The position numbers were made by a program, and so were the translations under genes. From positions 1-41,199 of the forward strand of contig JACRLJ010000130.1 of assembly GCA_016215105.1 (NCBI GenBank): a DNA stretch of 41,199 nt. Reading direction: 5' to 3'. This document shows, one piece after another, positions 9,435 through 24,058 of this stretch. Source of the DNA: Candidatus Hydrogenedentota bacterium. GTDB lineage: Bacteria; Hydrogenedentota; Hydrogenedentia; Hydrogenedentales; SLHB01. The notes below the pieces were generated by a model that saw nothing but the letters and a program-made list of their open reading frames with translations, ran no database searches and was not told where the DNA came from. Every line of letters starts with the position of its first letter. The first letter of the stretch is position 1.

Positions 9435-10096
9435 TACTCGCGTTCTCCCGCCATTACCCCGGCATAGACAACTGCCTCGCTTCTTCAGTTACACATTCAT
9501 ACGCGCCGGGTATAGGATTGACGCGTCCCCGCTCTTCCCCTGGCACATGCCATCCGCATATAAAACCCCGTAGGTAACCCGATACGTAGCGCTATTCAGA
9601 CTCCTACGCTCCCCAGGGCGCCGGTAGCGCGTATAGTAGAGTATACCATGCACTATTGAAAAATCTACTGTGAAAAGCGACAACACGATCGAAGCTGGCT
9701 TCTGTAGGCTTGAGAAAACGCTGACGGAGTAACCCAGCTTTCTCTAGAGGCGCCATGAAGTGCAAATCCACAAAACTGGATTCACACAATCAGTACGTGT
9801 CCTCCACGTACGACCGAGCGCGGCAATCCGGACGTCTTTCTGAATGGCGTATCTCAATGTTTAATGGGCGCTTATGGCAGGTTCGTCTCCCCGGGCCAGC
9901 GGACTCGGCGTAAGGGTTTTCCCTTACCCCAACTTCGCATGCCTACGTTATTGCCCTGATGTATTCCACTTGATATGCCGACTACACTTGGCTCGTCTAG
10001 GCTGAGAACTTGGGGCTGCGACTTCTTCTGCGGCAGGCGCCGACAACAGAATTTGTCATTGGAAAGTGTCCCATTGTCTGTAATTTGGGAGCTGTC
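9435..10096. other. Divergent intergenic region between two cytochrome operons
   Basis: 662 bases without a convincing gene, separating the leftward HAMP/heptaheme operon from the rightward multiheme operon, so it must hold at least two promoters. Its base composition is more AT-rich in places than the genes. A short minus-strand reading frame at 9604-9789 has no ribosome site or family features. The clearest element is the palindrome at 9910-9927, listed separately. TATACT-like elements occur around 9640-9647 on the minus strand, without a matching -35 box. Confidence 0.6.
9910..9927. promoter_or_regulatory. Perfect palindrome, possible regulator site or hairpin
   Basis: GTAAGGG, TTTT, CCCTTAC: a perfect 7-base inverted repeat with a 4-base centre, about 170 bases upstream of the first rightward cytochrome gene. 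The GGG-N4-CCC core with TA flanks resembles GC-rich palindromes described for NarL-family regulators such as NreC, and a NarL-type regulator is encoded at 26731-27372. It is also a possible RNA hairpin; the tail is CCCC rather than a T run, so it is not a good terminator. Confidence 0.45.
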
Positions 10097-11494
10097 ATGA
10101 GTTTACCGACTCTGCGCATACGGCGTTCAAGAATCAATTTGGGTGGCGCTGTCTTTGGACGGGTGACGCGCGCTACGGTTTGCCTGGCGTCTTTGGCTGC
10201 GGCGTCTCTTCTTTCGCTAACACCGCTTGCGGCGTGGGGCGCGGCGGCTCCCGCGACGATTGACCCCGAAGCATCGTGTACGACTGGCGGATGTCATGCC
10301 GACACGAAAGCAAAACCGAAACTTCACGGACCGGTGGCGGGTGACGCCTGCCAGGGATGTCATGAGCCCAAAGGTAAAGAGCATAACTTCGCAAAAATAA
10401 GCGATATTCCGGCTCTATGCACGAAGTGTCACGACAAAGTTGACGGGGCCGCCAATGTGCATCCGCCCGCCCAGGGAGACTGTTTGGTCTGCCACGACCC
10501 GCACGGCTCGAAGGTTGCGGGAATGCTCAAGGCCGACGATCAAAAGGCGCTGTGCTTCAGTTGCCACGAAGACGCCATTCTAAAAGGGGAGTATCAACAT
10601 GGGCCCGCGGCCGTGGGTGCGTGCAGCGTCTGTCATAATCCCCATTCCTCCGCCCAGGAAAAACTGCTCCGCAGTCCCGGCAATGAACTGTGCGCGACGT
10701 GTCACGCCGACCTCGTCAAAGACATGACGTCGGGCGCCAATGTGCACGAGCCGGTGCGCAAAGGGTGCGTATCGTGTCATAACCCGCACAGTGGTCCGAA
10801 GCCCAAGATGTTGCCAGGCTCGACTCAAGAATTGTGTGCGAAGTGTCACGAGAAACAGGTAAAGGCCGCCAAAGAGTCGGCCGTTCCCCATGGGCCTGCG
10901 GCTGAAGACGGTGGCTGCACCAAATGCCACACCCCGCACGGATCGAACAACAGGCCACTTTTGAAAGCGGCCCAGACAGACCTCTGCGTGGGGTGTCACG
11001 ACAAGCCCCTGGAGGCCGGGAAAACCAAGCTCACGAACATGAAGCAATTGCTCGCCGACAACAAGGAATGGCACGGTCCCATCCGTGACGGTGGATGCAC
11101 GGGGTGTCACGAAGCGCACGGGGGCGCGAATTTCAGGCTATTGAAGCAACCGTATCCCGCTACGTTCTACAGCGCGTACCAGCCGGACAATTATGCGCTG
11201 TGCTTTACGTGCCATGAGCCGATGATGGCGAAGGAAGAGTTCACCAAGACGCTTACCGGTTTCCGTGATGGAGATCGCAATATGCATTTCCTGCATGTGA
11301 ACAAGGCAGACCGCGGACGGACGTGCCGGGCGTGTCACGAAGTTCACGCCAGTACCCACCCGCGCCACATCCGCGAGAGTGTTCCCTACGGCAATTGGAG
11401 TCTACCGATCAACTTCGCAATTACCGAGCAGGGAGGGTCGTGTCAGCCGGGCTGTCACGCCGCCAAGACCTACGACCGAAGCAAAAAGAACTGA
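10097..11494 (+). CDS. Exported multiheme cytochrome c, 13 CXXCH plus CX4CH and CX3CH
   Basis: 465-residue periplasmic or outer-surface cytochrome made of repeated doubled-CXXCH units (pattern LCxxCH ... H.P...G.CxxCH.PHG). Signal peptide about 1-50 with an AWGA-type cleavage site. Thirteen CXXCH sites run from CQGCH to CRACH; they are flanked by CTTGGCH (CX4CH) near residue 60 and CQPGCH (CX3CH) near the C terminus, so up to 15 hemes. Highly spaced HGP and NVH histidines look like axial ligands. GGGAG at 10087-10091, 5 bases before ATG 10097, fixes the start; an upstream in-frame extension lacks signal-peptide character. First gene of the rightward cluster, followed after 37 bases by the thioredoxin-fold/TPR gene. 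Likely role: long-range electron carrier between inner membrane and the porin complex. Confidence 0.92.
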   Translation: MSLPTLRIRRSRINLGGAVFGRVTRATVCLASLAAASLLSLTPLAAWGAAAPATIDPEASCTTGGCHADTKAKPKLHGPVAGDACQGCHEPKGKEHNFAKISDIPALCTKCHDKVDGAANVHPPAQGDCLVCHDPHGSKVAGMLKADDQKALCFSCHEDAILKGEYQHGPAAVGACSVCHNPHSSAQEKLLRSPGNELCATCHADLVKDMTSGANVHEPVRKGCVSCHNPHSGPKPKMLPGSTQELCAKCHEKQVKAAKESAVPHGPAAEDGGCTKCHTPHGSNNRPLLKAAQTDLCVGCHDKPLEAGKTKLTNMKQLLADNKEWHGPIRDGGCTGCHEAHGGANFRLLKQPYPATFYSAYQPDNYALCFTCHEPMMAKEEFTKTLTGFRDGDRNMHFLHVNKADRGRTCRACHEVHASTHPRHIRESVPYGNWSLPINFAITEQGGSCQPGCHAAKTYDRSKKN

Positions 11495-11531
11495 AGATTG
11501 CCGCAGGGCGCCTTGAGTTGGACGGATTGAA

Positions 11532-12515
11532 ATGATGGGCTTGATACAGCTAACCGCGCAGCTTAGCGTCGTCGCGCTGACGACGCTGATGGCGTTCGAG
11601 GGCGTCCGTGAAGGAGACGCGGTACCGGCCTTTAGTCTGAAAAGCACCGACGGGCAGAGCTTCGATTCCACCAAGGAGTTCAACGCTCCGGCCAGTATCA
11701 TCGCCTTCTGCCGCTTGGAGCAGGAGTACTCCGAAGCGCTCCTGAAGGACCTCCAGGGGCTGTATAGTGAGGTCCAGAGCAAGGGCGTGCGGGTGGCGGC
11801 GATTTTCTCGGGCGATGCCGATCCGGCGAAGGTCGCCGAGTTGAAGAAGCGCCTCGATATACAGTTTCCCCTGCTATTGGATTCCGACCGGGCGACATAT
11901 GGGAAGTTTGGCGTGATTGTCGCGCCCGCGACCGGTTTCGTGGACGGCAAAGGTGTTCTGCGCTTCTACTACGCCAACTACCGTCGCGACTTTCCTGACA
12001 CGGCTCGTGCGAACGTCGATCTTCTGTTAGGCAAGATCTCTGAAAGCGAGCGGGCGGACCGAACCAAACCGAAGGCCGCCCCCGAGGCGAACTCGAGCCG
12101 CGCGGGAGCCCACTATCGGCTTGGCCTGCAGTTACTAAAGGCGGGCATGCGTGAAGAGGCCGAAAAGGAGCTGAATCAAGCCTGGAACAGCGAGCCCCGA
12201 TCGGCAGACGCGGGAATCGAACTGGGTCTAGTCTTGCTTCAGGAGAACAAGAACGAAGAGGCATTGAAGGCCCTCACTGACGCCGCGAAGCTGGCTCCAG
12301 ACAGTGCAAAGGCAGGCGGCGCAAGAGGGGTCGCGCTTCTGAGGACGGGTAAGGAAGACGAGGGAAAGGCGTTGCTCGAGCAAGCGATCGGCCAATCCGT
12401 AAAGACTCCACTGCTCTATTTCGAGATGGGCCTGTGGTACGAAAAGCATGGGATGGCGGACAAGGCGGCCGCGTCTTACAGGAAGGGTCTGGAAATAGCC
12501 CTTGAAGGATCGTAA
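11532..12515 (+). CDS. Thioredoxin-fold (AhpC/TlpA-like) plus TPR protein without CXXC
   Basis: 327 residues. A short hydrophobic N terminus (about 5-22) may be a signal or anchor. Residues about 26-165 form a peroxiredoxin/TlpA-like domain (GDAVPAFSLKSTDGQSF, then the beta strand IIAF and later FPLLLDSD, YGKFGV, PATGFVDGKG). Where a CXXC or peroxidatic cysteine is expected, the sequence reads LEQEYSEALL, and the only cysteine I see is C60. So the fold seems kept but the usual redox pair lost. Residues about 185-325 carry around four TPR repeats. Between two cytochrome genes it may act as a scaffold or chaperone for cytochrome assembly; that is inference. ATG 11532 has a weak ribosome site (GGA at 11524-11526). 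Confidence 0.82.
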   Translation: MMGLIQLTAQLSVVALTTLMAFEGVREGDAVPAFSLKSTDGQSFDSTKEFNAPASIIAFCRLEQEYSEALLKDLQGLYSEVQSKGVRVAAIFSGDADPAKVAELKKRLDIQFPLLLDSDRATYGKFGVIVAPATGFVDGKGVLRFYYANYRRDFPDTARANVDLLLGKISESERADRTKPKAAPEANSSRAGAHYRLGLQLLKAGMREEAEKELNQAWNSEPRSADAGIELGLVLLQENKNEEALKALTDAAKLAPDSAKAGGARGVALLRTGKEDEGKALLEQAIGQSVKTPLLYFEMGLWYEKHGMADKAAASYRKGLEIALEGS

Positions 12516-12850
12516 GGAGCGTATGAGCAACTTCCTGGAAATCGGATGCGTGTCAAGAATTTCCGATGACTTCAATAGTCTGACCAAGGCCGCAGGACGT
12601 TTGTGCGGCGCCAATTCAATGGTGGCTGTACGTCTACGCAACACTGTCTCGCTAGGTTTTATGGGTCTTTTCATTTGTATTGAAGTTGGTATCCGTAGTT
12701 TTCCCCGGGGGTATACCTGCAAAACCATCATTTTCCCTGATGCGAGGGGACTTGGTGGGCCGGTATACTCGGGATAGTAGTCTTGAATAGTTTCTTCTGG
12801 GCTGGGTTAGGGTTACTCAAGGGTTATACGAAGAAAGGAGTATTTGAGGT
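12516..12850. other. 335-base leader/intergenic region before the tetraheme gene
   Basis: No supportable gene. It contains CCCCGGGGGTATACC at 12703-12717 and a second GGTATAC at 12762-12768, an inverted pair that could be protein-binding sites, and TATACT at 12764-12769 that could be a -10 box without a clear -35 partner. The tetraheme gene downstream probably has its own promoter here and a long leader. A short frame crossing it (12502-12777) has no signal or domain features. Confidence 0.5.
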
Positions 12851-13480
12851 ATGTCAAGGAATCGGAAAGGTTTAATGGGAGTAGTCGGGGTAGCCGTCGT
12901 GGCGTTGGCGTTGTGCCTTTCGTCAACGGCTGGAACCATCGCGGGCACTGACCACGACTTCTCGTCGCAGGGATGGAGCAATGGTGAAATCTGCGTAGTA
13001 TGTCACACCCCCCACAATGCGAATACTACGGTAACTGCGGCGCCGTTGTGGAATCACCAAGTCTCGACGGCAACGTATACTGTGTACAGCAGCGGCACGT
13101 TGAATGCGACTGTTGGCCAGCCGGATGGCGCCACGAAGTTGTGCCTTTCCTGCCATGATGGCACGGTAGCGATTGACAGCTTCGGCGGACGGACGGGCAC
13201 GCAGATGATGAGCGGTGGCGCACTGGTTGGCACCAGCCTCTCGAACGACCACCCGGTATCGTTCACCTACGATTCCGCTTTGGCGACGACGGATGCCGGT
13301 CTGAAGAACCCCGCCAGCGCGACGTCGGGTCTGGGCAGCACGATTGCGGCCGACATGCTGGACGGTGGCAAGATGCAGTGCTCCTCGTGCCACGATGTTC
13401 ACAACGGGTCGGGCGTGTCGAAGCTGCTCCTGAAGTCGAATGCCGGTAGTGCGCTGTGCCTTACCTGCCACACCAAGTAG
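12851..13480 (+). CDS. Exported tetraheme cytochrome c (cytochrome c3 / doubled-CXXCH family)
   Basis: 209 residues with signal peptide (about 1-31, LSSTAGTIAG) and four hemes: CVVCHTPHNAN, CLSCHDGTVA, CSSCHDVHNG and CLTCHTK at the very C terminus. Other family marks are GWSNGEIC, PLWNHQVST, TYTVYSSGTLNA and NDHPVSFTYDSAL. It is closely related to the pentaheme protein at 20374 and to the first 210 residues of the protein at 18641. Small tetraheme proteins with this layout include polymerising extracellular cytochromes such as OmcE; whether this one polymerises is speculation. AGGAG ends 10 bases before ATG 12851. It has its own long upstream region and is followed by a strong terminator, so it is probably expressed as a single, perhaps abundant, transcript. 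Confidence 0.9.
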   Translation: MSRNRKGLMGVVGVAVVALALCLSSTAGTIAGTDHDFSSQGWSNGEICVVCHTPHNANTTVTAAPLWNHQVSTATYTVYSSGTLNATVGQPDGATKLCLSCHDGTVAIDSFGGRTGTQMMSGGALVGTSLSNDHPVSFTYDSALATTDAGLKNPASATSGLGSTIAADMLDGGKMQCSSCHDVHNGSGVSKLLLKSNAGSALCLTCHTK

Positions 13481-13513
13481 GTTTGTGTTGTTAGTGTAGG
13501 ACTCAATTCTCGA

Positions 13514-13556
13514 AAGGGCAGCGGGCGTGCCTAGGTGGCGCTCCGCTGCCTTTTCG
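13514..13556 (+). terminator. Intrinsic terminator after the tetraheme gene
   Basis: GGCAGCGG (13517-13524) pairs perfectly with CCGCTGCC (13543-13550), followed by TTTT and further T-rich sequence; the stem can extend through the AAA before it. Lies 34 bases after the stop codon. Confidence 0.8.
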
Positions 13557-13650
13557 TCTTGCCTTTTCGATGGACCGGCGTATACACTCCCGCCGCCGCG
13601 GTGGCAGCGGCTCCAGGATGCGGGTTCACATAATGACGAAGGAGAAGCAG

Positions 13651-14922
13651 GTGTTGGGTGCAGAACGACAAGAGCGCGCGGGAAGATATGTTTGGGCAAC
13701 ACGGTCAAGACGGTCGTGTCTAGTGACTGCGCTGTGTGTGATTCTTTTCGGCTTGTCAACGGTGCTTTCCGTCGCGCGGGCCGCGGAGGAAAAGGCGGCC
13801 ACCCCTGAAAAGGCCACAGAAGAAAAGGCTGCCACCCCCGAAAAGGCTGCCGAAGTAAAAGCCGCCAAGCCCGAAAAGGCTTCAGAAGAAAAGGCCGCCA
13901 AGCCCGAGAAGACCGCCAAGAAAGACAAAGAGAAGGCCGCGCCGTCGGGGCCGATCTTTTATCCCCAGGCTCCCGAGCAACCCCGCATACAGTTTCTTCG
14001 CACCTTCAGCAGCGCGAAGGACATCAAGGCCAAGGCCAGCGGGTTCAAGAAGTTCATCGTCGGTGAGGAAGAGAAAGACGAGTCGATCACGAAAGCCTAT
14101 GGAATTGCGGTCAAGAACGGTACGATTTACGTCTGTGATTCGGGGCAGAACCGAATCGCTGCGTTTGATCTAAAGGCGAAGACACTCGAATACTTTGGCA
14201 AGGGGGCATCCAGTTCGCTGAAGAAGCCCATTAACATAGCCGTGGATTCGGAAGGCTTTAGCTACGTGGCGGACAAGGGGTTGAACTGCGTGATGGTCTA
14301 TGACTCCAACGGCCAATACGCGCGCGCCCTAGGGGACTCCAAGAAGATGGGTCCCACGGACGTTGCGCTCCTGGAAGACCAACTCTACGTCTGCGATCTT
14401 GACAACGCGCAAGTGGTCATCATGGACAAGAAGACCGGACAGGAGCAGCGCCGCATTGGCAGCAAGGGGAGCGGCGATGGCCAACTATTCCAGCCGACGA
14501 ACATCGCAGTGGACGGCGACGGAAACGTATTTGTCTCTGATACCGGCAACTCGCGAGTGGTGCGCTTTGACTCGCGTGGTAATTTTGTCAAGAAGGTCGG
14601 GGAGATCGGCATAACCCCGGGCCGGTTCGTGCGCACCAAAGGCATTGCGGTGGACCGGGCCCGCCGGCGCTACGTGGTGGATGCCGCGTTCGAGAACGTC
14701 CAGCTCTTTGATCCGGAAGGGAATCTGCTGTTGTTTTTCGGAGAACCCGGCAACGTACCCGGCGGCTTGAATCTTCCGGCCAAAGTGATCGTGGACTACG
14801 ACAATGTGGATTTGTTCAAGAGCAACGTGGCCCCGGGTCACGCGCTCGAATATCTGATTTTGGTCAGCAGTAATTTCGGCGTCAACAAAGTCAACGTGTA
14901 CGGCTTCTTGAAGGAGAAGTAA
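13651..14922 (+). CDS. Exported NHL-type beta-propeller with repeat linker
   Basis: About 423 residues. Signal peptide (about 1-44) with a long basic start (RYVWATRSRRS) and VARAA cleavage region; then four 11-residue EEKAATPEKA-like repeats and a lysine-rich segment; then FYPQAPEQPRIQFLRTFSSA and a six-bladed NHL propeller (YGIAVKNGTIYVCDSGQNRI, NIAVDSEGFSYVADK, and similar). The segment DAAFENVQLFD is identical in the lipoprotein propeller at 17580, showing the two are paralogues. The start is GTG 13651, because GAAGGAG at 13638-13644 sits 6 bases upstream; ATG 13633 is possible but has no such site. The pentaheme lipoprotein follows 4 bases after its stop. Propellers of this kind probably bind protein partners; a structural role in the porin-cytochrome complex is inferred. 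Confidence 0.87.
   Translation: MLGAERQERAGRYVWATRSRRSCLVTALCVILFGLSTVLSVARAAEEKAATPEKATEEKAATPEKAAEVKAAKPEKASEEKAAKPEKTAKKDKEKAAPSGPIFYPQAPEQPRIQFLRTFSSAKDIKAKASGFKKFIVGEEEKDESITKAYGIAVKNGTIYVCDSGQNRIAAFDLKAKTLEYFGKGASSSLKKPINIAVDSEGFSYVADKGLNCVMVYDSNGQYARALGDSKKMGPTDVALLEDQLYVCDLDNAQVVIMDKKTGQEQRRIGSKGSGDGQLFQPTNIAVDGDGNVFVSDTGNSRVVRFDSRGNFVKKVGEIGITPGRFVRTKGIAVDRARRRYVVDAAFENVQLFDPEGNLLLFFGEPGNVPGGLNLPAKVIVDYDNVDLFKSNVAPGHALEYLILVSSNFGVNKVNVYGFLKEK
13786..13917 (+). repeat. 33-base tandem repeat, four copies, coding for 11-residue Lys/Glu/Ala/Pro units
   Basis: Four consecutive in-frame 33-base units encode EEKAATPEKAT, EEKAATPEKAA, EVKAAKPEKAS and EEKAAKPEKTA. The units form a charged, proline-punctuated linker between the signal peptide and the propeller. 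Copy number could vary by slippage between strains. Confidence 0.9.
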
Positions 14923-14926
14923 CTGC

Positions 14927-15520
14927 GTGGAGCGAGTCCCCAAAAGGACGGCAAGGAACTTCGCATGGGTGATGATCTTGAAACGGCTGGGATTGGCGAT
15001 GGCGCTGGTGGCCGGGAGTGTTGCGCTCGGCGCCGGATGCGCGACTCCGGAAGCCCGTTATCACGCGTTATCGGTCTTCTTCGACGGTGTGCCGGAGCCG
15101 GGCGCTGCGCCGGCTGTGGCGCCGCAGAAAACGGGAGATGCGGAGCCGGCTGCGCCCGCGCCTCAGTTTTCCCTGCACCCGCCGTACGCCGATAGAAAAT
15201 GTGATCTGTGCCACGAAAACCAATTTTCGAATCATTTGAAGATGGAGAAGTCGCTGCTGTGCGGGTCGTGTCACCAGTCGGACCAATTTACAGGCAAAGT
15301 TGTTCACGGTCCGGTGTCGTCGGGCAATTGTTACGCGTGTCACGATCCACACAAGTCACAGTATCCGCATCTGTTGCTGGAAGAGGGCTCGGCAATTTGC
15401 GGACGCTGTCATACGCCGGAGAGTTTTGAGAACCTGGAACGCCATCGTTCGGAAAAAGGCGGTGATTGCCTCAGTTGCCATACGCCCCATTCGGGTGAAA
15501 AAGAGCGCTTGCTCAAGTAG
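14927..15520 (+). CDS. Pentaheme c-type cytochrome lipoprotein
   Basis: 197 residues. The leader ends in the lipobox GAGC (cysteine near residue 38), so it should be lipid-anchored, probably in the outer membrane. Then ALSVFFDGVPEPG, a motif I recognise as common in cytochromes next to porin-like genes, a proline/alanine linker, and five CXXCH sites: CDLCHENQ, CGSCHQSD, CYACHDPHKS, CGRCHTPE, CLSCHTPHSG. The start shown is GTG 14927 with AAGGAG at 14911-14916; ATG 14972 (MILKRLGLAMAL) would give a shorter, more usual lipoprotein leader. It lies between the repeat-linker propeller and the beta-barrel gene (64 bases on), the place where porin-cytochrome operons encode the heme protein that plugs the barrel. 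Confidence 0.9.
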   Translation: MERVPKRTARNFAWVMILKRLGLAMALVAGSVALGAGCATPEARYHALSVFFDGVPEPGAAPAVAPQKTGDAEPAAPAPQFSLHPPYADRKCDLCHENQFSNHLKMEKSLLCGSCHQSDQFTGKVVHGPVSSGNCYACHDPHKSQYPHLLLEEGSAICGRCHTPESFENLERHRSEKGGDCLSCHTPHSGEKERLLK

Positions 15521-15584
15521 TCCGGGACTCCGCCAGGCCAGTTGTTGAAGCACGCACATAGAAGGAACGCGGAGTCAGAAGGCG

Positions 15585-17534
15585 GTGTCGCGAAAGTTTG
15601 GCATAGTCATTTGGGCGCTGGTGATGGGCGGACTGAACGCGCCCGCCCAGGAAGTGCGTCCATTTGCGCTGACGGATATCAGCGGCCATTTTGAATTGCG
15701 TCTAAGGAGTGAACAAGAGTCGAGAATGCGTCAGGAATCGGCTACATCGTGGGAATCGGAAGAGTTGCAGATACGCGAAGGACTGCGTCTCGACTTGGAC
15801 GGCTACGTGTACCATCCCCGCTTCGTGAAATTTCAAGTGGGCGGACTTTTCGAGGGCGTCCAAGATCAGATCTCGGAATCGGGTGTAGACACCGAGCGCA
15901 ACAGCTTTCCTCTGAGCGGTGACTTCAATTTAACTTTTCTGGAGCAACACAAGGACACCTTAACCTTGTACGGCAGCCGAAAAGAGTTGGATGTCCACCA
16001 GGCGTTCGCCCGCACGTTTCCTCTTCAGAGCAATTCATTCGGGGCCTCGCTGAGCATTCGGAACTGGGAGAGCGTTCCCGTCGAGGTGTCCTATAGCCAC
16101 AATTCACAACAGGGAAGTGGCGCCGGGTCGGACATTAACCAGACCGATGACACGTTCGCCATTCGGACCCGCTATCACATTGGCGAGCGTTCCGAAGGGG
16201 ATGCGGAATACAGCATAACCCGGACCGAAGATCTGGCTTTTCTCCGGCTCTTCGAGTTTCAGCAAATCACCCTTAATAACACGACCTATCTGGACAACGA
16301 TCGCAAAATCCGGCTTACGGGGTTCGTTCGCGTGTTTGACCAAAGCGGCGACACGAATCTAACGACGTTCTCGGCCCGTGAGACACTTGATTGGCGGCAT
16401 ACCGATCGCCTGCAAACGCGTTATTACGTCATCTACGACGACACCGAGACCGGGGGCCAAAAAGTACAAGTTTGGGACACGGGCGCTTCGCTGACGCATC
16501 GGCTGTATGAAAGCCTGCAGACGAACGCCGGCGCATACGTGCGTTTCGAGGAAGCTAGCTTCGGTACCAGCACGACATACGGGGGCACACTGACGGAGGA
16601 CTATACCAAGAAACTTGGTGATTGGGGGCAATTGGGACTCGCGGCGCGCGGCTCCACCGAGATTATCGAGACCCAGCGGACTCAGACGACCGCGACGGTC
16701 AAGGGGGAGACGCACGTCTTGACGAGGGGTGAACCGGTGACCCTCGGTCATTCCGGTATAGACACCACATCCATCGTCGTCACGGACGAACGGGGAGTGC
16801 GAATCTACTCTCTTGCTCGGGACTATACGATCGTGCCCATCAGTGACCCACCGCAAATTCTACCTCTAGCGCTCGGAAACATACCGGACGGAGCTACGGT
16901 CAAGGTCAACTACCGGTACAACCTTTCGGGAAGCGGCACGGTTCTCACGAAGGGTGGCGAATTCGATGCGCGCCTCCGAGTCGGGCAGTGGTTGTCGGTC
17001 TACGGACGATACGGCAGAACGGAACAGAGCCAAGTCGAGGGTATCCCTGCCACGCGGCTGGAGTCGCTGCAGCAGTACGCGGTGGGCGGAGTGGTGACAT
17101 GGCGCTGGGTGACGGTTGGGGCTGAATACGAAGACCGCGAGTCTGTCTTTTCCCCGTCTACCTCGCTCTCGGAATGGGTGTCGGTATCCGGAACACTCTG
17201 GCGCCGCGTCCAGGCGCAAATCTCCGCGTCCCATCGCGAATCCACCTTTGGCGAACTCACTGGACGGACACTCGAGACGCTGGACGTGAACGCGATGCTG
17301 AGCGCGCAGATAACGGACCGGAGCCAAGTGACGATGGAAGCCGAATACCGGCAGCAAACCTGGGACTTCACCAACAGTTCCAACAACCTCGAGGGGTACG
17401 GCGTGCGAATGGGCTACTCCTGGCGCTACCGCAAGGTGGCGGTGGAGGCCAACGCGCGTCTTTCCAAGGTCGAGCAGCGAGGGCAGCAGGAAGAACAGAA
17501 CCGCTTTGATCTCGTTGTGCGAAGGGATTTCTAG
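15585..17534 (+). CDS. Outer-membrane beta-barrel, porin of a porin-cytochrome complex
   Basis: 649 residues: signal peptide (about 1-22, ending NAPAQ), then alternating hydrophilic/hydrophobic strands throughout with many Tyr/Trp/Arg-rich segments (LRLRSEQESRMR, RLDLDGYVYHPRF, WRYRKVAVEANARL) and a C-terminal phenylalanine in FDLVVRRDF, the usual outer-membrane barrel end signal. No plug or TonB box is visible, and the size would allow roughly 22-28 strands. Lying between a pentaheme lipoprotein and a propeller/multiheme pair, it is the best candidate for the barrel that sheathes a cytochrome across the outer membrane. The start is GTG 15585, with GGAG 10 bases upstream. There is no clear sequence similarity that I can name to MtrB or Geobacter OmbB, so orthology is not claimed. 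Confidence 0.85.
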   Translation: MSRKFGIVIWALVMGGLNAPAQEVRPFALTDISGHFELRLRSEQESRMRQESATSWESEELQIREGLRLDLDGYVYHPRFVKFQVGGLFEGVQDQISESGVDTERNSFPLSGDFNLTFLEQHKDTLTLYGSRKELDVHQAFARTFPLQSNSFGASLSIRNWESVPVEVSYSHNSQQGSGAGSDINQTDDTFAIRTRYHIGERSEGDAEYSITRTEDLAFLRLFEFQQITLNNTTYLDNDRKIRLTGFVRVFDQSGDTNLTTFSARETLDWRHTDRLQTRYYVIYDDTETGGQKVQVWDTGASLTHRLYESLQTNAGAYVRFEEASFGTSTTYGGTLTEDYTKKLGDWGQLGLAARGSTEIIETQRTQTTATVKGETHVLTRGEPVTLGHSGIDTTSIVVTDERGVRIYSLARDYTIVPISDPPQILPLALGNIPDGATVKVNYRYNLSGSGTVLTKGGEFDARLRVGQWLSVYGRYGRTEQSQVEGIPATRLESLQQYAVGGVVTWRWVTVGAEYEDRESVFSPSTSLSEWVSVSGTLWRRVQAQISASHRESTFGELTGRTLETLDVNAMLSAQITDRSQVTMEAEYRQQTWDFTNSSNNLEGYGVRMGYSWRYRKVAVEANARLSKVEQRGQQEEQNRFDLVVRRDF

Positions 17535-17579
17535 TAACGTGACGGACAATATGCGTGAGCGCCCAAGTGGAGAGTCAGG

Positions 17580-18641
17580 ATGAGCTCCGTATCCATACGA
17601 TCTGGTTCGAGAATCGTTGTGGCGGGTCTGTTTACAGCGGCGCTACTGACAGCGCTTTCGTGTCAGAACTTGCAGAAGACCACGGTAACCTGGGATACGC
17701 CTCCCGTGCAACTGGTTTGGCCGCAGCCCCCGGATCAGCCGCGTATCCAATGGCTGGGTTCCATTCACTCCGCAGCGGACATTGGTCAAAGCCGCGCCGT
17801 CGGGCAGGGGATAGTGGAACTGGTGTTCGGTAAGAAAGAGACAGATCTGGTTAAGCCCGTGGCGGTGGCAAAGAACAGCGCGGGGTTGCTTGTGGTGGCG
17901 GACCCCGGCGTTCCTACGGTGCATTTCTTTGACTTGGCGCAGAAGAAATACACGCGTCCCAAGCAGAAGCATTCGGCGTTGCTTCAGTCCCCCGTCGGAG
18001 TCGCCGTGTCAGATGACGGCGCAGTTTATGTCGCCGATTCTGTATCGAACGAGATTCTGGTCTTCAACGTCAAGGGCGAGTTGGTGAGTCAGTTCGGCAA
18101 GGGTATCTTGACGCGACCCACCGGGCTCGCGCTCAACGCGGCTCAGGATAGGCTTTTCGCGGTAGACACCGTGGGCAATCAGGTGGTGACGTTTGACCGC
18201 GCAGGAGGTAAGCTCAGCGCGTTTGGGCGGCGCGGCAACCAGCCAGGAGAATTCAACTACCCGACCTACGTCGCCACTACTCCATCTGGAGCGCTCTGCA
18301 TTTCGGATTCCCTCAATTTCCGGGTCCAGACATTTCAGCCCGACGGCACGCTGGTCACCAGTCTTGGTCAAGCGGGCGATGTGGCGGGTTCATTCACCCG
18401 GCCCAAGGGCGTGGCAAGCGATTCGGAAGGTCGCTTCTATATCGTGGACGCCGCATTCGAAAATGTTCAATTGTTCGACACGAAGGGGGCTTTTCTGTTG
18501 GCTTTTGGGGGATCAGGGAAAGGTCCAGGCGAATTCTGCCTGCCTGCCGCGCTTCACGTCGATTCAACCAACACGATTTGGGTGGCAGACTCTTTCAATC
18601 AGCGCGTGCAGGTCTTCCGTTTGTTGGAGAACTCGGTGTAA
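17580..18641 (+). CDS. Lipoprotein NHL beta-propeller
   Basis: 353 residues. Signal peptide with lipobox LTALSC (cysteine near 28) and then the conserved WPQPPDQPRIQWLGSIHSA segment, matching PQAPEQPRIQFL in the propeller at 13651. Six NHL blades follow (VGVAVSDDGAVYVADSVSNE, THGLAL-like repeats, GVASDSEGRFYIVDAAFENV, LHVDSTNTIWVADSFNQRV). Single cysteines besides the lipobox are not in heme motifs. GGAG 7 bases before ATG 17580 fixes the start. Its stop TAA shares one base with the ATG of the 12-heme cytochrome (TAATG), so the two are translationally coupled. It is likely an outer-membrane-anchored scaffold for the cytochromes; no enzymatic residues are visible. Confidence 0.88.
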   Translation: MSSVSIRSGSRIVVAGLFTAALLTALSCQNLQKTTVTWDTPPVQLVWPQPPDQPRIQWLGSIHSAADIGQSRAVGQGIVELVFGKKETDLVKPVAVAKNSAGLLVVADPGVPTVHFFDLAQKKYTRPKQKHSALLQSPVGVAVSDDGAVYVADSVSNEILVFNVKGELVSQFGKGILTRPTGLALNAAQDRLFAVDTVGNQVVTFDRAGGKLSAFGRRGNQPGEFNYPTYVATTPSGALCISDSLNFRVQTFQPDGTLVTSLGQAGDVAGSFTRPKGVASDSEGRFYIVDAAFENVQLFDTKGAFLLAFGGSGKGPGEFCLPAALHVDSTNTIWVADSFNQRVQVFRLLENSV

Positions 18642-20338
18642 TGATTCACCACAAGATGTTCGCTTTACTATTGATTGCCGTGACGCTGGGTCTCTCCGGC
18701 TCCGTGGCTTCTGCAGGGATTGTCAACACCAAGCATAATCTCTCCGCTACCGGGCCCGGTACCGTCAAAGCCCCCAGCGAGAGCGAGGTGTGTATCTTTT
18801 GCCACACCCCTCACAATTCCTCTCCAACCGTACCGTTGTGGAATCGTAATCTGCCGGTCCTCAATTACACGCCCTATTCCAGTTCGACGATGCAGTCCTC
18901 GCCGGGCCAGCCCACCCACGCGTCCAAACTGTGCCTCAGTTGCCACGATGGAACCATCGCGCTGGGTTCGGTGTTGAGCCGCCCCACCCCCATTTCGGTG
19001 TCGGGTTCCCTCTCGAACAAAGCCAATCTGGGAACAAATCTATCCGACGACCATCCCGTTTCATTCGCCTATGATTCCGCACTGGCGGCCAAGAACACCG
19101 AATTGGTCAATCCGGCCTTGCTCACTGGCAGCGTTCACTTGGACTCGCACGGCCAGCTTCAATGTACGACCTGCCATGATCCGCATTCCGATACCTATTC
19201 GAAGTTCTTGGTAGTGGACGGCTCCAACGGAGCCCTCTGCACCAAGTGCCATACCAAGTCCGGATGGACCGGCAGCGCGCACGCGACCTCTATTGCAACC
19301 TGGAACGGGATGGGTACAACCCCTTGGCCTCATACTACGTGGACGACGGTGGCGGCCAACGGTTGCGAGAATTGCCATGCGCCTCACGCCGCCGGTACGG
19401 CAAAGGAACTGCTGAACTATTCCACCGAGGAAGGAAACTGTCTTCCATGCCATAACGGTAACGTGGATCGCAAGAACATCTCCAATGAAGTGGCGAAGCC
19501 CTACCGGCATTCCTCATCGGCCTACTTTCAAGTACACGACCCGGTCGAGAACTTTTCAATGATGGCGCGTCACGTCGAGTGCCAGGACTGCCACAACCCG
19601 CACGCGGCCGTCGCCGGTACCGCCACCGCGCCGAACGTGAGCGGTCCGCTTACGAAGGTCGCCGGGGTAACGATGGCGGGGACGCGCACGGCAAATTCCA
19701 ACTACCAGTACGAAGTGTGTCTCCGCTGCCACGCGGATAACGCCAACGTTCCGGCGCCGAATATTGCTCGGGTAATTTTGCAGCCCAATATCCGATTGAA
19801 ACTGCAAACCACCAATCCCTCGTTTCACCCGGTGCTAGGTCCGAGAAACAATACCGAAGTCACCAGCCTGATTTCGCCGTGGACCTCGTCGTCGTGGGTG
19901 TACTGCACGGACTGCCACAACAATGACTCCGGCCCGGGAGCGGGTGGTACAGGGCCGCGGGGTCCGCATGGCTCGACGTGGCGCTACCTCTTGGAGCGTC
20001 AGTATCTCACTGCGGATAACACCACCGAAAGCGTTCAGGCGTACGCCCTGTGTTACAAATGTCATGACCGCGCGAAGATTCTCGGGGACCAGACATTCCG
20101 CTACCACAACAAGCATATTGTAGGCGAACGGGCTCCGTGTTCGGCGTGTCATGACGCTCACGGGATCAGTTCCACCCAGGGTAACGCGACAAATAACTCG
20201 AATCTAATCAACTTCGACAAAACCATTGTCCTCAAAGAAACGTCAACGCAACGACTGGAGTTTCGAGATACGGGAGTGCGCCGAGGGCAGTGCTATCTGC
20301 TCTGTCATGGCGAAGCGCACAATCCATACAGCTATTGA
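18641..20338 (+). CDS. Exported multiheme cytochrome c, 11 CXXCH plus CX3CH
   Basis: 565 residues with signal peptide (about 1-25, GSVASAG). The first 210 residues repeat the tetraheme module seen at 12851 and 20374 (CIFCHTPHNSS, CLSCHDGTIA, DDHPVSFAYDSAL, CTTCHDPH, CTKCH). A long C-terminal half adds CENCHAPH, CLPCHNG, CQDCHNPH, CLRCHAD, CTDCHNND, CYKCHDR, CSACHDAH and the odd CYLLCHGEAH (CX3CH) near the end. That makes 11 canonical sites and one atypical one. ATG 18641 overlaps the upstream stop; a longer in-frame start inside the propeller gene lacks a signal peptide. The heme number, size and export suggest an extracellular or periplasmic conduit partner of the barrel. The tetraheme head may dock onto, or be exchangeable with, the small tetraheme proteins. 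Confidence 0.92.
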   Translation: MIHHKMFALLLIAVTLGLSGSVASAGIVNTKHNLSATGPGTVKAPSESEVCIFCHTPHNSSPTVPLWNRNLPVLNYTPYSSSTMQSSPGQPTHASKLCLSCHDGTIALGSVLSRPTPISVSGSLSNKANLGTNLSDDHPVSFAYDSALAAKNTELVNPALLTGSVHLDSHGQLQCTTCHDPHSDTYSKFLVVDGSNGALCTKCHTKSGWTGSAHATSIATWNGMGTTPWPHTTWTTVAANGCENCHAPHAAGTAKELLNYSTEEGNCLPCHNGNVDRKNISNEVAKPYRHSSSAYFQVHDPVENFSMMARHVECQDCHNPHAAVAGTATAPNVSGPLTKVAGVTMAGTRTANSNYQYEVCLRCHADNANVPAPNIARVILQPNIRLKLQTTNPSFHPVLGPRNNTEVTSLISPWTSSSWVYCTDCHNNDSGPGAGGTGPRGPHGSTWRYLLERQYLTADNTTESVQAYALCYKCHDRAKILGDQTFRYHNKHIVGERAPCSACHDAHGISSTQGNATNNSNLINFDKTIVLKETSTQRLEFRDTGVRRGQCYLLCHGEAHNPYSY

Positions 20339-20373
20339 TAGTTGAAACGGCTTTTCGATAAAGGAGAGTGCTC

Positions 20374-21039
20374 GTGAGAAAGATCATATCTGTCATCGTA
20401 ATTGCGTTGCTTCTGCAAGTCGCGGTTACCTCGCCCGTTTTGGGCGGCATAAGCCAGTCCCACCATGACTACAGCCGCGCGGGTTGGAGCGGCGGCGAAA
20501 TCTGTATCGTGTGTCACACGCCGCACAATGCCAATACGACGGTCGCGGACGCGCCCTTGTGGAATCGCGAAGTTAGCACGGCCACTTACACCGTGTACAC
20601 CAGTTCAACATTGAACGCCCTGCCCGGCCAGCCCAGCGGAAGTTCCAAGCTCTGTCTGTCGTGTCACGACGGGACCATAGCCGTTGACAGTTTCGCAGGG
20701 AAGACCGGTACCCGCTTTGCCGATTTCGGGAATTTCGGCACGGATCTTTCTCGACATCATCCAATCTCTTTTGCCTACGATAGCGCCTTGGCGTCCGAGG
20801 ACGGCAAACTTCACAACCCCGCGACAAAGGACTCGGGTCTCGGCGGAACCATCGAAACGGATCTGTTGGTAGACGGCCAACTCGAATGCACTTCGTGCCA
20901 TGACGTGCATGTTTCGCGCCATAGCGCGGGATGCGCCGGTTGCCACGCCGGTTCCGGTCATCCGTTCACAACGCGAAGTCTCTCGTTGAGGAAATCCAAT
21001 GCGGGCAGCGCGCTTTGTCTTACGTGCCATGCCAAATAA
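20374..21039 (+). CDS. Exported pentaheme cytochrome c, paralogue of the tetraheme protein
   Basis: 221 residues, signal peptide about 1-25 (SPVLGG). It keeps all four sites of the tetraheme family (CIVCHTPHNAN, CLSCHDGTIA, CTSCHDVH, C-terminal CLTCHAK) and has one additional heme motif, CAGCHAGSGH, inside a 20-residue insertion before the last site. GWSGGEIC, PLWNREVST and TYTVYTSSTLNA are nearly the same as in the 12851 protein. GTG 20374 is preferred because AAGGAG at 20361-20366 lies 7 bases upstream; GTG 20368 is also in frame. It follows the 12-heme gene by 35 bases and precedes the fusion cytochrome gene by 79, so it is probably in the same transcript. The insertion could alter heme packing or the subunit interface. 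Confidence 0.9.
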   Translation: MRKIISVIVIALLLQVAVTSPVLGGISQSHHDYSRAGWSGGEICIVCHTPHNANTTVADAPLWNREVSTATYTVYTSSTLNALPGQPSGSSKLCLSCHDGTIAVDSFAGKTGTRFADFGNFGTDLSRHHPISFAYDSALASEDGKLHNPATKDSGLGGTIETDLLVDGQLECTSCHDVHVSRHSAGCAGCHAGSGHPFTTRSLSLRKSNAGSALCLTCHAK

Positions 21040-21118
21040 GGGGATCAAAGTGCGGCGATCTGATAGAGCGGTCAATACGATACTACCGAAAATTGCGCGG
21101 AAAGGCGCGAGAGGACCT

Positions 21119-24058
21119 ATGAGATTAATCGCTGAGTTTGCGCTCCGGCGCTGTGTAGCGTACGTGCTCCTTGTGGCGGTCGTGGCTGCGGGCAATGCAG
21201 TGGCATTCGCCCAGGATGGAGCGCCGCGACCTCACCCCTATCAGTTGTCTGCGCCGGTGCGGATCACGTTTACTTCAGCCGGGGCCGTGCTGGTGTCCGA
21301 CCACCGGCTTCAGAAGATCCTGACGCTTGACAAGAACACCCTCGAACTTCGGAATGAATTCACTATCGCCGGAAGTCCGTCGGGGCTTGCCGTCGGCAAC
21401 GGCTTCTACTACGTGGGAAACGAGTCGGCAAAGCGCGTCGAGGTATACGATCAAGCCGGGACGTGGCAATACAATCTTGGCGGCGACTACACCATTCAAC
21501 AGCCGAACGATATCTCCGTGGACGCATCGAGCGGCCAGGTTTTCGTAGTTGACACCCAGAAGCGATGTGTCCGCGTGTTCGGGCGCGATGGGGCGTACGT
21601 GCGCTCGATTCCCGCTGGCGCCGCCGATCCGCTCGTGCTGGCCAACCCGACATGTGTCGCTTTGGACGAGACCCGCCAGGAAGTATTGGTCAGCGATTTC
21701 GGCGCGGAGGAAGCGAGCATTGGAGCGCGAGTCCAGATATTCAAGTACGATGGAACATATGCCGCCACGATTGCCGGAACGGACGCGGACCAGGGGACCC
21801 GGTTTTCCCGGCCGCAGGGGCTGGCCGCCGATGGGTACGGCCACGTGTTTCTCGTGGATAGTCTCTCCGGGTTGCTCCTCATTCTCGACCGAGAGACGGG
21901 CAAGCAATTGGGCAAATTCGGCGCCTTCGGCTCCGGCCCCGGCCAGTTGCTTCTACCCCTCGACCTTGTCATTGACCCCGTCTCCAAGGACGTTCTCGTT
22001 ACGAACAACCGGGCTCAGCGCATCGAAGTGTTCAACCAAGTGGCGGCGCAAGTTGCGGTTTCCCATGTAGGGGATGTCGACCTGTCAGGTTCCGCGAACG
22101 CAGTTGACGTGCAACTGGTGATCAATAAGGCGCTTGGCCTTGACATTGCCGGCAAGTACTATTGCGATGTTGATCAGTCCGGAAGTGTCGATGCCGTCGA
22201 CGTGCAACTCGTTACAAACGCCGCGTTGGGGCTCGTCATTGGCGCCAAAGGCAAAGCGGAAGGTTCGCCCGCCAAACCCGTAAGCACTACAAAAATGGCG
22301 CATGGAGTTTCGTCTCCAGCGACGGCCGGCGATTGGACGATGCTTGCGCTGGCTGGCGCGGTTATGATCGGTCGCTCGCGTGCGGGGTCAGGTCGAGCTG
22401 CGCGATGGGCGCGGCGGCCAAAGGTCGGGCGCCTTCTTGTGCCGGCCCTCATGGCGGGGATGTTCGCGGCTTCATCAGTGGCCTACGCCCAGACTTCTGT
22501 GCACGAATGCACGTACTGCCACGGTGTTTGGGAGCCTGGCGGACAGACCTTGTTGCACAACGCCGAGGTCGAAGTTCTCTGTCTTACCTGCCACGGTCCC
22601 GGCGGTATCTCGGTCCTCAAAGCCGATGTCCACACGAATCACGCGGGTAGCTCGCAGACGTTCCGCATGACCTGCACGGACTGCCACGACACGTACAACA
22701 ATCAGTTGAACTGGCACGGGGGCACGAACCTCAAGCTGGTCCTCTCCGAAATCGCGACGCCGAATAACGGCCCCCAGCAGGTAGCGTTCGAGAGTCTTGG
22801 CTCGACGGCCGGCGGCGCCACGCTGCATTCATTTGCTGACAACGACGAAGACGGTGACGGAATCTATGACGGCGTTTGCGAAACATGCCACACGCTCACC
22901 GGCAATCATCGCAACAACAGTACGGGCAACCATGCTCACTATGCGGGCCAGAACTGCACGTCGTGCCACCCGCATGACGGCTCCTTCTTGCCGGCGGGAG
23001 GCGCCTGCGACTCCTGTCACGGCGCGCCCCCAGCCACCGGGGCCCACTTGAAGCACTTTGGCGGCGTGGCCGGCTTGGCTACGTACGGTGGCGTCGAGAA
23101 TCTCTCGACCTCGACCGACTACGTATTCGATTGCGGCTCCTGTCACCCGATATCGTTCGACAAACACCGGAACGGCGTGGTGGATATTGAGCTCTACAAC
23201 GCTGCAGCGCCCGCCACGAGTTTGAAGGCCAGAAATCCGTCCAATGCATCCTACGTTCCTGGACAGACCACCTTCACCGACTCGAACGGGATCGACTACT
23301 CGCTTGGAACGTGTTCGAATGTCTATTGCCATAGCAAGACCAGTTGGTCTTCCCCGAACCCGATTTCTGATCCGCTGGTTGATTCTCTAACCGGTATATA
23401 CATCGGGGATGCCAACGGCAATCTTACGTACAACCCCTACACAGTCACGCAAAGCACCATCTATACCTCAATGGGGTGGGGCGACTCTCCGCTTACCTGC
23501 AACGGATGCCACCGCAACGGACCACAAAACTCGGCTCCGGGAGTCCAGGCCGGGGTCGGCGATTCCCACTCCTGGATAGATGAATACGGCTACGATAACC
23601 TTCATGCGTGGAATATGGGTTTTGATCCTCTGACGTGCCGAACGTGCCACTACGATACCGTGACCTCGAGCATGACGTGGACCCGCGATGCCAACGGTGT
23701 AGCTACGTACAGCGATGTTCCCATTGCCAATAAGGCAAAGCATGTCAATGGCGCAAAGGACGTTGCGTTTGATCGGATCGACCCAGTTGTCTACAACAGC
23801 ACGTTCAGTCTTGCGGCCAGTACGTACAACCCGGCGGACAAGACGTGTTCTTCCGTGCCTTGCCACGTGAGTCAAGCGAGACCGCAATGGGGTAAGCCCT
23901 ATCGTTGGTACACCAACGAATGCGACTACTGCCATCAATACAGCGGGAAGTTCCCGCCACCGCCTGCAAAGGCGGCTCTGGCGCCACATAAAGTGTCGCC
24001 AATCCATGCAGCTCCAGTGGCGCAAGACTGCAAGAAGTGCCACAGCGGAATTCGCTGA
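21119..24058 (+). CDS. Propeller-dockerin-multiheme cytochrome fusion protein
   Basis: 979 residues in one frame. Order: signal peptide (1-31, NAVAFAQ); NHL propeller (about 35-315); two dockerin-like calcium loops (GDVDLSGSANAVD near 318, CDVDQSGSVDAVD near 348); a short hydrophobic stretch with arginines (GDWTMLALAGAVMIGRSRAG, about 404-423) that looks like a C-terminal sorting signal; a basic segment and second hydrophobic stretch ending SSVAYAQ (about 438-458) that looks like a fresh signal peptide; then a heme domain with 11 CXXCH (CTYCH to CKKCH) and two CX4CH (CSNVYCH, CSSVPCH). CSNVYCH followed by CNGCH is the CxxxxCH...CXXCH pattern described from Geobacter. ATG 21119 has GAGGA just upstream. 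No stop or frameshift is visible at the junction. Read as one polypeptide, both functional halves would lie outside the membrane with the basic loop inside. Confidence 0.85.
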   Translation: MRLIAEFALRRCVAYVLLVAVVAAGNAVAFAQDGAPRPHPYQLSAPVRITFTSAGAVLVSDHRLQKILTLDKNTLELRNEFTIAGSPSGLAVGNGFYYVGNESAKRVEVYDQAGTWQYNLGGDYTIQQPNDISVDASSGQVFVVDTQKRCVRVFGRDGAYVRSIPAGAADPLVLANPTCVALDETRQEVLVSDFGAEEASIGARVQIFKYDGTYAATIAGTDADQGTRFSRPQGLAADGYGHVFLVDSLSGLLLILDRETGKQLGKFGAFGSGPGQLLLPLDLVIDPVSKDVLVTNNRAQRIEVFNQVAAQVAVSHVGDVDLSGSANAVDVQLVINKALGLDIAGKYYCDVDQSGSVDAVDVQLVTNAALGLVIGAKGKAEGSPAKPVSTTKMAHGVSSPATAGDWTMLALAGAVMIGRSRAGSGRAARWARRPKVGRLLVPALMAGMFAASSVAYAQTSVHECTYCHGVWEPGGQTLLHNAEVEVLCLTCHGPGGISVLKADVHTNHAGSSQTFRMTCTDCHDTYNNQLNWHGGTNLKLVLSEIATPNNGPQQVAFESLGSTAGGATLHSFADNDEDGDGIYDGVCETCHTLTGNHRNNSTGNHAHYAGQNCTSCHPHDGSFLPAGGACDSCHGAPPATGAHLKHFGGVAGLATYGGVENLSTSTDYVFDCGSCHPISFDKHRNGVVDIELYNAAAPATSLKARNPSNASYVPGQTTFTDSNGIDYSLGTCSNVYCHSKTSWSSPNPISDPLVDSLTGIYIGDANGNLTYNPYTVTQSTIYTSMGWGDSPLTCNGCHRNGPQNSAPGVQAGVGDSHSWIDEYGYDNLHAWNMGFDPLTCRTCHYDTVTSSMTWTRDANGVATYSDVPIANKAKHVNGAKDVAFDRIDPVVYNSTFSLAASTYNPADKTCSSVPCHVSQARPQWGKPYRWYTNECDYCHQYSGKFPPPPAKAALAPHKVSPIHAAPVAQDCKKCHSGIR

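Follow-up and report, generated by a model that had tools for sequence, protein, structure and literature searches.

A single open frame joins an NHL propeller–dockerin protein to a 13-haem cytochrome through a predicted membrane hairpin: a putative Sec-exported polyprotein

The window analysed here is the whole of a 41,199-nucleotide stretch from a Candidatus Hydrogenedentota bacterium (contig JACRLJ010000130.1 of assembly GCA_016215105.1). On its forward strand, a single open frame (21119–24058) encodes a chain of 979 residues arranged as propeller, dockerin, hairpin and cytochrome, with the stop codon at 24058 (Table 1). The reading frame (frame 2) is free of stops from 20990 to 24058 and no stop separates the two halves, which bears out the proposal of an earlier sequence-only reading that two exported proteins are joined here in frame. 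The ATG at 21119, which is preceded by GAGAGGA, is the likely start of the fused frame, more so than the ATG at 20999, which would give the longest version of the chain.

The propeller shares 47–49% identity with the unfused propeller proteins of loci L005 and L006, and the dockerin scores 26.7 bits against a Pfam cut-off of 22.9 for Dockerin_1. The cytochrome half carries 11 CxxCH and two CxxxxCH motifs, confirming the count of 13 haems made earlier from the letters, and its first five haems form a conserved domain common to L005, L006, L088 and other loci. HMMs built from the two parts matched the window frame with values of 6.7e-131 and 9.4e-88, the window itself being a row in both alignments. 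Structure prediction gave low-confidence models for both the junction and the haem domain (mean pLDDT 49 and 50), and modelling of this quality does not allow comparison with the OmcS fold. The sequence lends no support to an identity as an OmcS-type nanowire; the profile match to OmcS (E 0.0026 over ~50 positions) lies below those to several other multihaem proteins.

The region upstream of the fused frame (10010–20338) has the appearance of a porin-cytochrome cluster forming an electron conduit. Besides several multihaem cytochromes it encodes NHL proteins, a protein of thioredoxin/TPR-like type and a likely outer-membrane barrel. In NCBIfam the barrel candidate (15585–17534) weakly matches a phage tail tube family, at 39.1 bits for a cut-off of 60.

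Table 1 Features of the fused frame and its nearest neighbours in the window.
Feature	Position	Strand	Basis or remark
Second propeller and cytochrome pair, two separate genes	17580..20338	+	TAATG overlap at 18639-18643
Upstream cytochrome, five CxxCH	20368..21039	+	G030 has a counterpart ahead of its unfused pair
N-terminal signal peptide, end AFA↓Q	21119..21211	+	Hydropathy segment 21137-21211 and sequence reading
NHL beta-propeller	21212..22060	+	Pfam NHL
Type I dockerin repeat pair	22070..22222	+	Pfam Dockerin_1
Post-dockerin linker, 37 residues	22223..22333	+	Codon signal of the frame fades past about 22286
Helix 1, short, hydrophobic, anchor- or sorting-signal-like, WTMLALAGAVMIG	22334..22372	+	Hydropathy
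Basic loop RSRAGSGRAARWARRPKVG, 19 aa, 7 K/R, 0 D/E, predicted cytoplasmic	22373..22429	+	Charge count
Internal signal peptide, end AYA↓Q	22430..22489	+	Hydropathy and sequence reading
Cytochrome, 13 haem motifs	22490..24055	+	Pfam cytochrome c7/c3 matches and motif count

The two-helix hairpin with a basic loop and a following signal peptide, as described in the sequence-only reading, was recovered from hydropathy and from the charge of the loop. The second hydrophobic segment (22430–22483) reads RLLVPALMAGMFAASSVA and, by sequence reading, hydropathy and charge counts, has the basic n-region and A-x-A site of a signal peptide; it occupies the position at which the separate cytochromes have their N-terminal signal peptide. 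Two such helices around an equally basic loop were found in none of 216 other genes sampled across 369 kb of this genome. The hydrophobicity of helix 1 was equalled by 21 of 654 stop-free shuffles of the region, and helix 1 taken alone is modest evidence, weaker than the helix pair with its basic loop.

Codon usage agrees with the frame up to ~22286 and again from ~22478, but not in between. The intervening stretch (22286–22478) falls in the lowest 1.4% of 1096 windows of the same genome, and 22364–22489 ranks second lowest when compared with 51 signal-peptide regions. The basic loop has the worst codon usage of the junction, while the helices are normal in third-position GC (0.71 and 0.74). 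Such poor usage means that the stretch is either newly recruited or untranslated. A coding model placed no frameshift within the window frame at any of three penalties; this model was noisy, with many shadow calls, and was used solely for the absence of a shift inside that frame. Frame 0 upstream of the TGA at 22365 scores as non-coding (−11.7 over 22294–22366), which leaves the idea of a fossil ATGA at 22364 combined with an upstream frame shift unsupported. Neither an RNA signal (folding z 1.28) nor a promoter-like site was found at the junction. Run-through of a non-coding frame, known in some high-GC genomes and exemplified by long upstream frames at L166 and L168 that are not coding-like, was ruled out for the window, where the propeller and dockerin themselves lie in the frame in question.

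Comparison with homologues, a check that the sequence-only reading had itself proposed, showed that the propeller and cytochrome parts occur as adjacent genes, with 33 separate pairs found in two sets (19 and 14). The first set began with 38 cytochrome frames, 18 of which lacked a propeller frame within a distance of 400 bases, several of them in loci that are short or start near a contig end; L114, the gene downstream of a fused frame, was also excluded, leaving 19 pairs. Loci L110 and L111 have identical junctions in two genomes and were each counted. All 14 loci of the second set were paired, although the propeller scores of L169, L170 and L172 were weaker (E 1e-10 to 1e-13). The start and stop codons overlap as ATGA or GTGA in 20 of the 33 pairs and abut as TGATG or TAATG in three more. 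This predominance of overlapping or abutting genes suggests that translational coupling of propeller and cytochrome is probably the common state.

The genomes behind these comparisons were scanned with two alignments. That of the first haem domain had matches in 8 of 386 genomes across the domain, the window's order included (E 1e-12), in 16 of 395 genomes from the phylum of a Nitrospiraceae relative (1e-20) and in 8 of 396 genomes from the phylum of a Candidatus Aminicenantes relative; the second alignment had matches in 15 of 396 genomes from the phylum of genome G988 (1e-15). The Aminicenantes and Nitrospiraceae assemblies, two closer relatives found in a scan of named genomes, both have two genes with an ATGA overlap. 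Within the window's order, a related cytochrome was found at the threshold used in G030 only, among 68 genomes including the window's own, and none of the other genomes among these 68 has the fusion. The locus in G030 has a like layout, with a five-haem cytochrome, a propeller and then a multihaem cytochrome; its propeller gene ends in a membrane anchor of its own, ADLTLLIIALAVLGWKAKPGRTPSAS, followed by a stop codon that overlaps the cytochrome start as ATGA.

Against the 33 separate pairs, only three pairs lie in a single frame, namely those of the window and of the distantly related genomes G988 and G081. The clearest in-frame case is that of G988, in which the chain runs from a propeller through Ig-like domains to ASIPTVGPWGLALMAMLLALAGWAALRRR and then TLVLVFIGVFLAGTATVQA↓VDPPHW and five haems. 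Here ASIPTVGPWGLALMAMLLALAGWAALRRR is an IPTL-CTERM signal in mid-protein (TIGR04174, 26.3 bits, cut-off 20.5; PF18203, 29.9 bits, over the Pfam cut-off). The RRR that ends it abuts the signal peptide and haem domain directly and would double as the basic start of that signal peptide. Codon usage at the G988 junction is normal (12.9 against a median of 13.0 for 22 windows of its own frame), and the genome encodes, above the cut-off, exosortase H (XrtH), the partner enzyme of the IPTL-CTERM signal, as the model names also have it. In G081, the chain consists of a propeller, further domains, a helix, a short loop, a signal peptide and five haems; no recognised sorting signal was found in this chain and no XrtH in this genome, and codon usage at its junction is weak. 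In a tree of 31 haem domains the fused rows stand apart from one another, with the window among separate-gene rows and nearest to L006. The fused state needs three changes on this tree. Two of them at least are forced by branches with good support, so that fusion arose no fewer than twice; three origins are likely, though short of certain given the low support within the groups.

The sequence-only reading had also taken helix 1 for a C-terminal sorting anchor. Its anchor-like character stands, since it is similar to the anchor that ends the unfused propeller of G030 and lies where G988 has its sorting signal, but no sorting-signal model matches it: none of the NCBIfam families hit the window tail at E up to 10, and the chain has no PEP motif. 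The window genome (G000) encodes an EpsH-type exosortase (183.4 bits), together with an XrtH-like exosortase that scores below the cut-off (81.5 against 86). An exosortase gene on contig C68 (L140, about 1960; G000:C68:12958) has a frame that is broken just past the ACSGIR region, and represents either a pseudogene or an assembly error. The genome has 50 dockerin matches. In 27 of the 30 dockerin loci read (L008–L037) the dockerin pair forms the very C-terminus of the protein, which makes the linker and helix past the dockerin of the fused chain unusual.

The explanation that we favour, and hold to be on balance probable, is that a stop codon was lost between two translationally coupled genes, one for an exported NHL propeller and one for an exported multihaem cytochrome, giving a Sec-exported polyprotein that would form a membrane hairpin and be cut by signal peptidase into two proteins. 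That the two-gene state is the rule, and that what lies inside the fused chain is precisely the second gene's signal peptide, supports the loss of a stop. In the proposed sequence of events, the first signal peptide would begin export of the propeller–dockerin part. Basic loops are held in the cytoplasm by the positive-inside rule; the loop would therefore stay there, with helix 1 halting transfer and helix 2, as a second signal peptide, resuming it. If the second signal peptide were missing, the haem domain would remain in the cytoplasm, where haem is not attached to c-type cytochromes; its resumed export would bring the cytochrome to the periplasm for haem attachment. Cleavage by signal peptidase is predicted from the A-Y-A↓Q site and would free the 13-haem cytochrome, while the propeller–dockerin protein may retain its membrane tail or lose it to an exosortase-type enzyme. 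The outcome would be two exported proteins in a one-to-one ratio. A plausible role for them lies in extracellular electron transfer, as the cytochrome cluster hints, with the dockerin perhaps docking the propeller to a surface scaffold through a cohesin partner.

Three other accounts of the locus were weighed. The locus may really be two genes whose stop was erased by a wrong base or small indel in the contig, an error of assembly or sequencing that we regard as rather unlikely. The excess of separate over in-frame pairs (33 versus 3), the poor codon usage of the window junction and the stops in another frame just upstream of and within it all fit such an error, and a stop soon past the dockerin would be ordinary in a genome where most dockerins end the protein; the broken exosortase gene on contig C68 belongs to the same assembly. 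Yet the helix, the basic loop and the signal peptide all make sense in one open frame, the coding model requires no frameshift, frame 0, in which the TGA at 22365 would act as the stop, scores as non-coding upstream of it, and two other assemblies (G988 and G081) show a matching architecture. If the frame is real, the cytochrome could also or mainly be initiated internally, for example at the ATG at 22364, and be made as a separate protein without cleavage. This ATG lies in frame immediately ahead of the basic loop; a start there would give the signal peptide a long basic N-terminus, and the ATGA at 22364 resembles the overlap in relatives. We nevertheless judge internal initiation to be distinctly improbable, given a weak signal for ribosome binding (−3.3 kcal/mol, where five of the seven other window starts tested reach −5.5 to −7.1), the lack of a promoter-like site at the junction and the expectation that coupled restart needs an upstream stop.

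It is also improbable that the chain stays uncleaved, with the membrane hairpin keeping propeller and cytochrome together. There is no stop, placement of both parts on the same side of the membrane needs no cut, and a tether would presumably keep the electron carrier next to the propeller; however, the end of helix 2 is a textbook signal peptidase site of the A-x-A form (A-Y-A↓Q), and the separate cytochromes have signal-peptide-like N-termini at the same place. With that site, cleavage of the fused chain appears more likely than the single joined polypeptide that the sequence-only reading had envisaged. An ordinary single folded protein was ruled out, as the two halves come from separate genes in relatives and the junction is not bridged by any known domain. 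For the polyprotein formed by stop loss, the occurrence of the pair as neighbouring genes elsewhere and the recurrence of the fusion in two distant genomes suggest that one precursor probably yields both proteins.

A bacterial polyprotein divided by signal peptidase is already known in FbcH of Bradyrhizobium, the cytochrome b/c1 precursor. As in the window, one frame of FbcH encodes two proteins, the second of them a c-type cytochrome behind an internal signal peptide that can be cleaved, but the parts joined in FbcH are both bc1 complex subunits, whereas the window frame joins an NHL–dockerin protein to a 13-haem cytochrome. Mid-protein sorting signals likewise seem to have been noted already by the curators of NCBIfam, whose model NF033207, 'midcut-by-XrtH protein', implies by its name a mid-protein cut by exosortase H. 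Residues 729–807 of the G988 chain, which span the IPTL signal and the following signal peptide, match model positions 14–90 of 175 with 42.1 bits (cut-off 45), and the window protein has no match. The term 'midcut-by-XrtH' was not found in the literature searched, which covered few subscription papers, and within the same coverage no paper was found on propeller and cytochrome pairs fused in this way.

Proteins sorted by the PEP-CTERM/exosortase system resemble the window chain: an exported domain, headed by a signal peptide, is followed by a helix and then a basic cluster (PMC1569441). According to that paper, the PEP-CTERM signal lies near the C-terminus, with fewer than ten further residues in 87% of proteins, and the very few long-tailed examples were suggested to be non-functional; by comparison, the window chain has no PEP motif and continues after the helix and basic cluster into a signal peptide and a cytochrome. 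Clusters of the OetABI porin-cytochrome type with extra extracellular cytochromes likewise combine several multihaem cytochromes with a barrel gene, as the window appears to do with its barrel-like gene at 15585–17534, although neither 'NHL' nor 'propeller' occurs in the main text of the paper on them (PMC10553843). ANME archaea, which move electrons outside the cell, have multihaem cytochromes with S-layer domains as well as dockerin and cohesin proteins, and share surface domains and dockerins with the window; their S-layer domains are part of the cytochrome polypeptide, and an internal signal peptide is not described in the available part of that study (PMC9012536).

Taken over all loci, the NHL propeller and multihaem cytochrome form a conserved pair whose product ratio is apparently fixed, usually by gene overlap and rarely by fusion, and a fixed ratio argues for a joint role of both in moving electrons out of the cell. 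The fused arrangement also suggests that sorting signals are not bound to the C-terminus and that a signal peptide may directly follow one, in which case automatic annotation would call one odd giant protein. It is possible, though short of probable, that repeated stop loss between overlapping genes for exported proteins has given rise to a class of Sec polyproteins, with a cleavable hairpin of sorting or anchor helix and signal peptide and a fixed one-to-one ratio of propeller to cytochrome.

Relatives of the window's first haem domain also occur in other settings. At L089:2410-3132, a small haem protein related to this domain has a run of ~20 glycines between two haem motifs. On the Nitrospirota side (L093–L107), relatives of the domain head very long cytochromes, in frames of up to 2216 aa, with many further haem-domain matches.
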